Shown: piece by piece, positions 14,071-17,717 of the stretch
Numbering within the stretch: position 1 is the stretch's first letter
Layout: every line of letters starts with the position of its first letter
IMG/VR virus record: IMGVR_UViG_3300021792_000509
Location: 1-26,227 of that record
From: a virus
DNA: 26,227 bases
Direction: 5' to 3' (one strand)
The notes under the pieces: model-generated
The model's input: the letters and a program-made list of their open reading frames with translations, nothing else
What the model was told of the DNA's origin: nothing
The model's database searches: none
Position numbers and translations under genes: made by a program

Positions 14071-15390
14071 ATGAGCGAATCATTACGCCAAGCAATGACT
14101 GAAGCAGTCGAATTAAAAACAGGTGAAGCTTTTGAAATCATTTATCATGGAGGAAGCTCACCAGGCAGTAAGCGAACAATAATGCCCCTCAAAGTTGACG
14201 GCCATTTAGTTTACGCAAAGTGCTTTGACTCTGACTCAGAGAAAAACTTTCGATTTGATCGCATGGAGTACGCTACTGATAATAGCGCTCCATCATGGAA
14301 ACCATTCGATACCTCAACCAATTCAAATAGTGCCTCTAAAAAGAAAACTGGTTTCTTCGCATCAATGAAGAAATCTAACCCTGATCCTATGAGTAACAAG
14401 GCCATCTTTGGTGTATCGGCTTTATTTGCTCTGGTTGGATTCTTTTTCCTAGGGCCAATTGGCTTCTTAATTATCTACGCGTTTTTTGTCTATGCTGGGC
14501 TTTCTCACAACAGAGACGTTAAGAAAAAAGCTCAAGCGAAAGCAGACACTACAAAAACAGTTCATTTTGCCCCTACTTCTTCTACGAATGGCAAGACTGC
14601 ATCAGTCGATGTAAAAAGCACAGCTGCAACCGACTCTAAAAACACTGTAAAGAATACATCACCAGAATCTGTGCCAACGCCAACGACTAAAACTGAAGCG
14701 CACAAGATCATAAACAGCCTCAAAACCAAAGAGGAAATCGAGTCTTTCGTTCAAGCCTGTTATGCCGCACAGGACTCTATTTATGATGACCACCCAACCC
14801 TTTCTGAAAAACAAATTGATCGAATATACAGCGTTTTATCTGATGCAATTGATCAAGCAGAATATAAAACATTAAGCTGGCAGTTTGTGCCCGACGTACA
14901 TTCTGATACCCCACTAGATGTACTTGAAATCGCATTTAAGGAATTCAGCTCTGCTGAGCGATTAGCATTACCTGCTAAATTTAGAACTGAATATGGGAGT
15001 GCCTGGCTTGAACTTACCTACGACTCAGAACCAGATTTGAAAGAAGAATTCTTAGACAACCTCATAGAATTCCGAAAAATCGTGGAATCAGACCTTCAAG
15101 ATGACGCAATGGCAAACGCTATAGACGCCTACCTTTCTGAGCATCCGATTTTTTCAGTTGAATATTTTGGGAAGCTAGATGACAACGCCCTACTTACTCA
15201 TGGCCAAGAATGGATGGCATCCAAGCTAGCAAAAGAAGGCCTTCCTTCTGCTTGGGAGCTTTATGCCGAAGGCTACACAACAATTGAAAAGTGCCTAGCG
15301 ATCGAACCAGATGAGTTCATAAAACGCAAAGGCATTGGCCCAAAGAAAAAGCAGCAGCTTATAGAGTTTCAAAACAAACACCGAAAATAA
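14071..15390 (+). CDS. Moron: WYL-like N-domain, membrane hairpin, C-terminal HhH; function unknown
   Basis: The product is 439 aa. Residues 15-68 (FEIIYHGGSSPGSKRTIMPL and the following LVYAKCFDSDSEKNFRFDRM) read like a WYL-type ligand-sensing beta fold. Residues 110-145 are two hydrophobic segments split by GPIG, ending in a positive cluster (RDVKKKAQAK). A long Thr/Ser/Lys linker follows (about 155-210), then a helical acidic region. The last 36 residues carry a helix-hairpin-helix (RKGIGPKKKQQLI), a DNA- or self-association motif. Composition is more A/T-rich than the structural genes. It is a stand-alone gene with its own promoter region and a strong terminator, a moron layout. It could be a lysogenic conversion or anti-phage factor, but no catalytic motif is visible. 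Confidence 0.8.
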   Translation: MSESLRQAMTEAVELKTGEAFEIIYHGGSSPGSKRTIMPLKVDGHLVYAKCFDSDSEKNFRFDRMEYATDNSAPSWKPFDTSTNSNSASKKKTGFFASMKKSNPDPMSNKAIFGVSALFALVGFFFLGPIGFLIIYAFFVYAGLSHNRDVKKKAQAKADTTKTVHFAPTSSTNGKTASVDVKSTAATDSKNTVKNTSPESVPTPTTKTEAHKIINSLKTKEEIESFVQACYAAQDSIYDDHPTLSEKQIDRIYSVLSDAIDQAEYKTLSWQFVPDVHSDTPLDVLEIAFKEFSSAERLALPAKFRTEYGSAWLELTYDSEPDLKEEFLDNLIEFRKIVESDLQDDAMANAIDAYLSEHPIFSVEYFGKLDDNALLTHGQEWMASKLAKEGLPSAWELYAEGYTTIEKCLAIEPDEFIKRKGIGPKKKQQLIEFQNKHRK

Positions 15391-16608: not shown

Positions 16609-16638
16609 AAAATGCCTCCTGTGTATTGGGTGTTTTAA

Positions 16639-16695
16639 CCGCCACACAAGAGACGCCAATCTCATTAGGGTGGCGGGTCGAACGGATTGGCGTTA
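16639..16695 (-). promoter_or_regulatory. Structured rha leader with switchable helices
   Basis: On the minus strand the leader carries AACGCCAATC (16685-16694) and, closer to rha, GATTGGCGT (16653-16661), which are complementary over 9 bp. The second copy also sits in a local hairpin (GAG/CTC closing an ATTGGCGT loop, 16650-16663) nested in an outer stem CCGCCAC/GTGGCGG (16639-16645 with 16670-16676). This lies about 20 nt ahead of the rha Shine-Dalgarno. The same ATTGGCGT occurs as a hairpin loop in the upstream RNA at 16817-16832. Confidence 0.6.
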
Positions 16696-16763
16696 CCGTA
16701 CACAGGGACGGCGGGTGCAAGCACCCTCCGAACGACCCACCATAACAGGTGTATTCAGGACGT

Positions 16764-16852
16764 AAAAAAACACGCATACAAGTAATAGAGGCGTGTCCTA
16801 GTCCTCTGTGTTTAAACGGAACGCCAATTCCGGCACTAGATTTTGCTAGTGC
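16764..16852 (-). ncRNA. Putative C4 / P4-CI-like antisense RNA, about 90 nt
   Basis: A minus-strand promoter (16859-16888) would start RNA near 16852. The RNA begins with hairpin GCACTAG-CAAAAT-CTAGTGC (16833-16852), followed by hairpin CGGAA-TTGGCG-TTCCG (16817-16832). It ends with stem ACACGC/GCGTGT (16791-16796, 16770-16775) and seven T (16764-16770). The second loop is complementary over 9 nt to AACGCCAAT in the rha leader. This order of small RNA, leader target and antirepressor-like gene is that of C4 RNA of P1/P7 and CI RNA of P4. Family membership is inferred from architecture, not shown by a covariance search. Confidence 0.6.
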
Positions 16853-16858
16853 AGGCGA

Positions 16859-16888
16859 AGTATGGCCCCGTGTATGCGTTGTTGTCAA
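16859..16888 (-). promoter_or_regulatory. Candidate sigma70 promoter for the antisense-like RNA and rha
   Basis: Minus-strand TTGACA (16883-16888), an 18-bp spacer and CATACT (16859-16864). The -35 is perfect. The predicted start coincides with the first hairpin of the small RNA. Confidence 0.6.
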
Positions 16889-16952: not shown

Positions 16953-17717
16953 ATGTCATTAAAGCCTTGCAGAGAGTGCAAACAAGAAGTTTCAAACAAA
17001 GCTAAAACCTGTCCACACTGCGGAGTTAAGAACCCCGCTTCCAGTTTTATGCGTAGGCTCCTAAGGCTCCTATTAATAATCTTTGGTATCTTTTTTGTTC
17101 TAGGTCTTATCGGTGCCATCGTGGGTGAACCACCAGAAAAAACCACAACCGGAGACTCTACTCCTGCAACAGAAGCCGAAGCTCCCGATCCAGTACAAAA
17201 AGCTACGTCCAACAAACCAGCCCAAGTTGAGACCATCAGTTCTACCCAAACCACTCCGAAGGAAGTTCCTTTTTCTGAGCGACCACTCATTAACGCAGAA
17301 GAGCGTGATCAGCTGATCATCGATATGAGTAACTTCTACTTTGAAAGCGCCGCTGATTTACTTTCTCATTACTCTTCTTACAAAAACCGAGATCGCTCTG
17401 TATTTATCCTCTGGCATAACAATGAATGGCTTCCATCCGTCAAAGCCCAAGAAGAGCATTTCGAGTCAATTATCAGCACTTACCAGATTGGAGTTACCAA
17501 TCAGGACTTCTTTCCTATTCGAGGAGCCATTGGTAACCTCAGCCATATTTCTTTGCTCTTAATGCAATCCATTCGAGACAACAATCCCGACGCCCTAGAA
17601 ACTGCCAGAATGCATCTTAGAAATGGCATGACCGGCGTTGGTAAAACCATAGAATCTCTGAAGTTGCAGCAGCACATAACCATCCCTGACGCTATCCAAC
17701 AGCAAGCGAACAACTAA
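16953..17717 (+). CDS. Moron: zinc-ribbon plus single membrane span, 254 aa, function unknown
   Basis: I start at ATG 16953-16955, 9 nt after AAGGA; a longer in-frame version would read through the regulatory region. Residues 6-23 are a zinc ribbon (CREC...CPHC, Cys6, Cys9, Cys20, Cys23). A hydrophobic span follows at about residues 36-57, flanked by Arg, then a Thr/Pro/Glu-rich linker (60-105) and a helical C-terminal domain with FYFESAADLLSHYSSY and RDNNPDALETARMHLRNGM. The cytoplasmic zinc ribbon next to one span, with an outer domain, is common in unknown bacterial envelope proteins. It is a candidate lysogenic conversion gene. It ends convergently on ogr with a 4-nt overlap. Confidence 0.78.
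   Translation: MSLKPCRECKQEVSNKAKTCPHCGVKNPASSFMRRLLRLLLIIFGIFFVLGLIGAIVGEPPEKTTTGDSTPATEAEAPDPVQKATSNKPAQVETISSTQTTPKEVPFSERPLINAEERDQLIIDMSNFYFESAADLLSHYSSYKNRDRSVFILWHNNEWLPSVKAQEEHFESIISTYQIGVTNQDFFPIRGAIGNLSHISLLLMQSIRDNNPDALETARMHLRNGMTGVGKTIESLKLQQHITIPDAIQQQANN

Follow-up and report, generated by a model that had tools for sequence, protein, structure and literature searches.

The window, which is the whole stretch of viral DNA that was analysed (26,227 nt), contains a single minus-strand leader located between a small plus-strand gene (16953-17717) and the gene rha (16608-16021). The leader carries one promoter, a small RNA of the IsrK/c4-a1b1 type with its terminator, a C4 RNA and rha, in that order (Table 1). 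The Rfam families c4-a1b1, isrK and C4 were all detected above their curated cut-offs on the same strand of this leader, with E-values computed over the whole window of 2e-9, 1e-11 and 8e-9, respectively. These E-values and the covariation across loci described below confirm that the module is far beyond chance. The minus-strand promoter, the two successive hairpins and the terminator with seven T described in an earlier note on this DNA are all present, and the position before a phage regulator gene was correctly recognized. The kinship with C4 of P1/P7 and CI of P4 proposed there is borne out by the Rfam matches, P4 CI itself matching RF01695. The structured RNA at 16747-16666 (C4), the b sites and the isrK/c4-a1b1 match of the small RNA had been overlooked.

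Table 1. Elements of the rha leader and the gene downstream
Element	Position	Strand	Evidence or score
Sigma-70-type promoter: TTGACA (16888-16883), 18-nt spacer, CATACT (16864-16859)	16888-16859	minus	10/12 consensus matches
c4-a1b1 (RF03163)	16865-16813	minus	47.7 bits; cut-off 46.7
IsrK-type small RNA (isrK, RF01394)	16852-16765	minus	63.7 bits; cut-off 50
Hairpin 1: 7 bp, GCACTAG/CTAGTGC, loop CAAAAT	16833-16852	minus	
Hairpin 2: CGGAA/TTCCG, loop TTGGCG, houses a1	16832-16817	minus	
a1, ATTGGCGT, partner of a'	16821-16828	minus	hairpin 2 loop; pairing and covariation
b1, ACACAGAGG, partner of b', similar to rha ribosome site	16803-16811	minus	
Small-RNA terminator (intrinsic): stem and a run of seven T	16765-16799	minus	predicted fold
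C4 antisense RNA (RF01695)	16747-16666	minus	57.3 bits; cut-off 45
b', CCCTGTGT, P3 loop of C4	16700-16707	minus	complementary to b1, b2
a', ACGCCAAT, between P3 and closing stem of C4	16686-16693	minus	complementary to a1, a2
Leader stretch AACGCCAAT, complementary to small-RNA loop	16694-16686	minus	
a2, ATTGGCGT, target site, 5 nt past the C4 end	16653-16660	minus	
b2, ACACAGGAGG, target site, rha ribosome site	16615-16624	minus	
rha, regulated gene, 195 aa	16021-16608	minus	Pfam PF09669 Phage_pRha, 4.5e-27

The C4 RNA contains two single-stranded sites, a' and b', each of which has two partners, namely a1 and b1 in the small RNA and a2 and b2 before rha. In the window, a' pairs with a2 over 8 bp and b' pairs with b2 over 7 bp. 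The site a1 is identical to a2 and b1 resembles b2; the small RNA copies the ribosome region of rha in the same sense and would act as a decoy. The complementarity of the leader to the small-RNA loop that had been noted earlier was found at AACGCCAAT, the second copy of the loop sequence, ATTGGCGT, is present as well, and the two exact 9-nt complementarities (leader with leader, leader with small RNA) were recovered as inverted repeats. The second copy does lie in a hairpin loop (GAGA-TTGGCG-TCTC), but its distance to the ribosome site is about 30 nt and not 20.

A search for relatives of the leader in phages at the DNA level found none, and relatives were therefore sought in two other ways, through the Rha protein and through a pattern of the a1b1 core (GCAAAATC-N5-CCGG-N2-TTGG) run on viral contigs and genomes. 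Of the first 50 viral records with the a1b1 pattern, 46 contained C4 above the Rfam cut-off; two of the other four had no a1b1 stem (chance matches) and two had the pattern near a contig edge. When our own covariance model was applied off contig edges, 158 patterns with an intact first stem had a same-strand C4 at 40-300 nt downstream and 2 had none. The pattern scan of genome contigs was rich in chance matches (stem missing in 70 of 117) and was used as a control; C4 occurred downstream of only one of 74 patterns without the stem. About one quarter of 63 loci chosen by the Rha protein alone, some of them from the same phage, had C4 upstream of the Rha match, mostly at a distance of 45-81 nt. 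Ten of the Rha-chosen loci were read by hand and showed the same layout, and their loops differ yet still match (TTGGCGT, GTAGGAA, TTAGCAG, TTGGTAG and TTGACAG). The unmodified Rfam models were also run on 198 genomes belonging to the same family as the Vibrio albus genome. Of 62 isrK matches over the cut-off, 60 were followed on their own strand by C4 at a distance of 16-78 nt, and C4 was present in every one of the 37 genomes that had such an isrK match.

Covariation was counted in 114 distinct loci at the three a1 bases left free by the search pattern. At 341 of 342 positions, these bases and a' form pairs (with shuffled partners, 164 ± 10; maximum of 20,000 shuffles, 205). For a2 and a' the figure is 327 of 333 (shuffles, 161 ± 10), and a2 is identical to a1 in 108 of 111 loci. 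The mean longest run is 8.1 bp for b' with b2 and 7.2 for b' with b1, compared with 4.2 and 4.0, respectively, when partners are swapped. All of these counts refer to related sequences and not to independent events, but among the 13 distinct a1/a' types 38 of 39 positions match. Hairpin 1 occurs as 51 distinct stems in the 114 relatives, nearly all of them fully paired, and an intrinsic terminator lies between a1b1 and C4 in 107 of the 114 loci (12 expected from shuffles). Both the hairpins and the pairing of loop and leader thus covary among the relatives, and the module thereby withstands the refuting condition on covariation given in the earlier note. A promoter-like site, judged by eye, is found at the same position in P1, P7, Gifsy-1, N15 and the rha relatives. 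No LexA box above chance was found at the module promoter.

The closing stem P1 and the hairpins P2 and P3 of C4 show both-sided changes at 15 of 24 pairs in 33 sequences, a set in which P3 is poorly aligned, so that P3 rests on the Rfam alignment. The window C4 scored 56.9 bits against our own covariance model R1, of which it is one of the 33 sequences. A GGU is present at the expected RNase P position (16741-16739), and from the sequence the C4 5' end is likely of the RNase P type at GGU 16741. A coupled reading frame like orf45 of Gifsy-1 was considered and rejected; the C4-internal frame of the window stops after 16 codons, and such a frame reaches the gene start in only 5 of 114 loci.

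The feature is best read as a C4-type antisense RNA switch, in which C4 represses rha and the short RNA antagonises C4 (probability roughly 0.8). The parts of the module, their order, their pairing and their covariation are observed directly, whereas P1/P7 and Gifsy-1 serve as the model for the processing of C4, the repression of rha, the direction in which the small RNA acts and the role of Rha as an antirepressor. By this model, the promoter would yield mostly the short terminated RNA of the IsrK/a1b1 type, and read-through would yield a longer RNA carrying rha, from which C4 (approximately 75 nt) would be cut. Free C4 would place a' on a2 and b' on the rha ribosome site (b2), giving no Rha translation and a quiet lysogen. 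The short RNA, with a1 and b1, would bind C4 in place of the target and, where abundant, would relieve rha and promote induction. Before the long RNA is cut, its a1/b1 part could also lock C4 in cis.

Several of these steps have been studied in other phages. The processed c4 RNA of P1 represses Ant synthesis in trans (PMC8546580). RNase P processes this c4 RNA at a GGW motif, and its b' site covers the ribosome site (PMC5320573). In Gifsy-1, IsrK supplied in trans raised anrP translation 139-fold, an effect larger than that on transcription (8-fold), and the pairing of G28/G31 with C162/C159 was tested (PMC4825925); these positions correspond to a1 and a', respectively. Breaking a1 in cis, on the long RNA, raised expression rather than lowering it (PMC4825925), and co-expression of orf45/STnc1160 with IsrK worsened growth arrest. 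These cis and co-expression effects indicate that a plain sponge model is too simple and that the decoy picture is incomplete. Predicted binding to C4 is only slightly stronger for the decoy than for the target (median, -31.4 vs. -29.7 kcal/mol; decoy stronger in 69 of 113), and the idea of a decoy that binds C4 much better was rejected. Standard two-strand folding of C4 with the target gave no gain, because loop-loop contacts cannot be modelled by it.

In the fold predicted for the full leader, a' is base-paired with a1 (P 0.87), and a local hairpin closes most of the ribosome site of rha (0.17 unpaired), an arrangement that resembles 'structure A' of Gifsy-1 isrK-orf45. Rha may therefore stay off partly without C4. 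The a1-a' pairing also agrees with a leader that acts in cis only, in which a1/b1, C4 and a2/b2 are alternative partners in one long RNA and free small RNAs are irrelevant. Such a leader is clearly unlikely, as C4 of P1 acts in trans (PMC8546580), Gifsy-1 makes a separate processed RNA of about 80 nt (STnc1160) with IsrK acting in trans, and the terminator is conserved among the relatives. The same conserved terminator would suit a control like that of P4, in which C4 on a1b1 (seqA of P4) and a2 (seqC of P4) promotes early termination and rha is left untranscribed. P4 CI belongs to the same family (RF01695, E 3.7e-17) and has an isrK match upstream, and P4 CI, seqA and seqC are described, as cited in PMC4825925, as working by termination. 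The b' site, however, covers the ribosome site (7 bp here, on average 8 bp in relatives), and this speaks for control of translation, as does the Gifsy-1 effect, which is greater on translation than on transcription; P4-like control of rha is possible but on the whole doubtful.

The earlier note had taken the promoter-proximal terminated RNA itself as the antisense RNA, which would hold Rha off by pairing with the leader. That RNA does have its own promoter and terminator, and its sequence complements AACGCCAAT of the leader. This stretch belongs to C4, however, so that the terminated RNA pairs with C4 and not with the ribosome site. As a1b1 and a2b2 are same-sense copies, the role of antisense RNA to the rha ribosome site is not open to the promoter-proximal RNA and falls to C4. 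Binding of the terminated RNA to a' would free a2/b2, and its tested homologue IsrK activates (PMC4825925), which would invert the sign proposed; repression of rha by this RNA is very unlikely. It is more improbable still that the module is a decayed leftover whose elements survive while rha is no longer under their control. The window C4 (57 bits) does score lower than most relatives (64-86 bits), but each of the six pairing sites is still intact and finds its match, a good promoter and terminator are in place, and the rha reading frame is open and encodes a complete Pfam domain. The window represents a further temperate phage with a known kind of RNA switch, for which the expected working direction is now corrected.

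Comparison with known systems places the module within the C4 family. C4 of P1/P7 (RF01695, RF03163) shares the RNA family, the order of promoter, a1b1, C4, a2b2 and an antirepressor-type gene, and the a'/b' pairing with the ribosome region. The target in P1/P7 is icd-ant and their isrK matches remain below the cut-off (35 and 44 bits), whereas the target in the window is rha, with a full isrK match and a clear terminator. Gifsy-1 IsrK/orf45 (STnc1160)/anrP (RF01394) has the same small RNA with C4 downstream, but the target is anrP, and its orf45 overlaps the anrP start whereas the window frame ends early. The CI RNA of P4 (seqA, seqB and seqC) is alike in RNA family, by Rfam score and DNA similarity, and in its three-site logic. 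It differs in controlling a replication operon, reportedly by transcription termination, whereas the downstream gene in the window is rha, and in a spacer from isrK to C4 of 107 nt compared with 17 in the window. Salmonella phage ST64B and Aeromonas phage LPM4 (Peduoviridae) carry C4 and isrK before a Rha-type gene in the same geometry, although with other loop sequences; the RNA control of rha is thus not the first of its kind. The C4 and isrK RNAs are absent from the annotated features in the stretches of the ST64B and LPM4 records that were examined. The annotated CDS of ST64B sb41 and SfV orf37 begins upstream of C4 and continues across this RNA into the antirepressor-type gene, for which the ATG following b2 is probably the true start.

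C4 was detected over the Rfam cut-off in Gifsy-1, P1, P7, P4, N15, SfV, ST64B and LPM4. All eight phages have an isrK match upstream of C4, which passes the cut-off in six of them and falls short of it in P7 (E 1.5e-9) and P1 (E 2.5e-7). The C4 of Gifsy-1 is located at 34131-34214, 25 nt downstream of isrK and overlapping orf45 (region 33700-34420). Numbered from the isrK start, the Gifsy-1 region has AUGs at 107 and 119, an orf45 of 45 aa that overlaps anrP at 241, and C159/C162 inside a'; the recomputed positions are exactly those mutated in PMC4825925. The C4 match and these published mutation sites within a' identify the Gifsy-1 orf45/STnc1160 stretch as a C4 RNA by sequence. The orf45 frame is not conserved; in 31 of the 114 loci, including the window, it ends within C4.

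The Gifsy-1 study (PMC4825925) compares IsrK with P4 seqA/CI and not with C4, and a 2025 review lists c4 and IsrK separately (PMC12197685). In Rfam, C4 and c4-a1b1 share one clan and isrK is in none. The link of IsrK and C4 as one locus may be new, although it has possibly been noted elsewhere, as subscription literature lay outside the search. A broader proposal is evenly poised. C4 systems in general, P1 included, may be circuits of a repressor RNA and an RNA antagonist, in which the a1b1 leader is terminated into an IsrK-type antagonist acting in trans; IsrK, C4 and P4 seqA/CI would then form one family, and what is called 'orf45' in Gifsy-1 would be a C4 RNA instead of a conserved frame. 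If true, all such prophages, including P1, carry an RNA repressor and an RNA antagonist in one leader. The proposal predicts that STnc1160 behaves as a C4 RNA and that the terminated a1b1 RNA of P1 relieves C4. The comparison joins two literatures in which IsrK and C4 have been treated apart.

Proteins encoded just downstream of C4 were classified by Pfam in 85 cases, and include Bro-N (19), Phage_pRha (14), ORF6N (6), P22_AR_N (3), AntA (3) and KilA-N (3), all of which are antirepressor-type genes. With Phage_pRha in 14 of the 85 loci, rha is a usual C4-linked gene; Rha genes, whose role has mostly been guessed, are often under a C4 switch. The antirepressor role of Rha is putative, by annotation. 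An ATG directly after C4 (window 16665-16606) shares the reading frame of rha across a2 and b2 and would add 19 codons; it has no clear ribosome site and could give a longer form of Rha.

The window phage is a divergent P2-like phage with the replication protein GPA and a capsid at most about 40% identical to those of named phages, and a search for a near DNA relative found none. The earlier assignment to HP1/K139-like phages does not hold; the Rfam search of K139 found neither C4 nor isrK, and in this respect the window phage is not K139-like. The divergent plus-strand gene at 16953-17717 has a zinc-ribbon-like start (CRECKQEVSNKAKTCPHCG) and no Pfam match, and is likely an added cargo gene beside the switch. 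Another plus-strand gene (14071-15390, 439 aa, no Pfam match) lies in an otherwise minus-strand region, and a perfect CTGT-N8-ACAG match at 14757 inside it is probably due to chance. In five genomes from the family to which the Vibrio albus genome belongs, 13-21 separate C4 RNAs were counted per genome, far more than in their neighbours and partly in the form of repeated close copies; the cause may be a large number of prophages or satellites, or the RNA itself may have spread.
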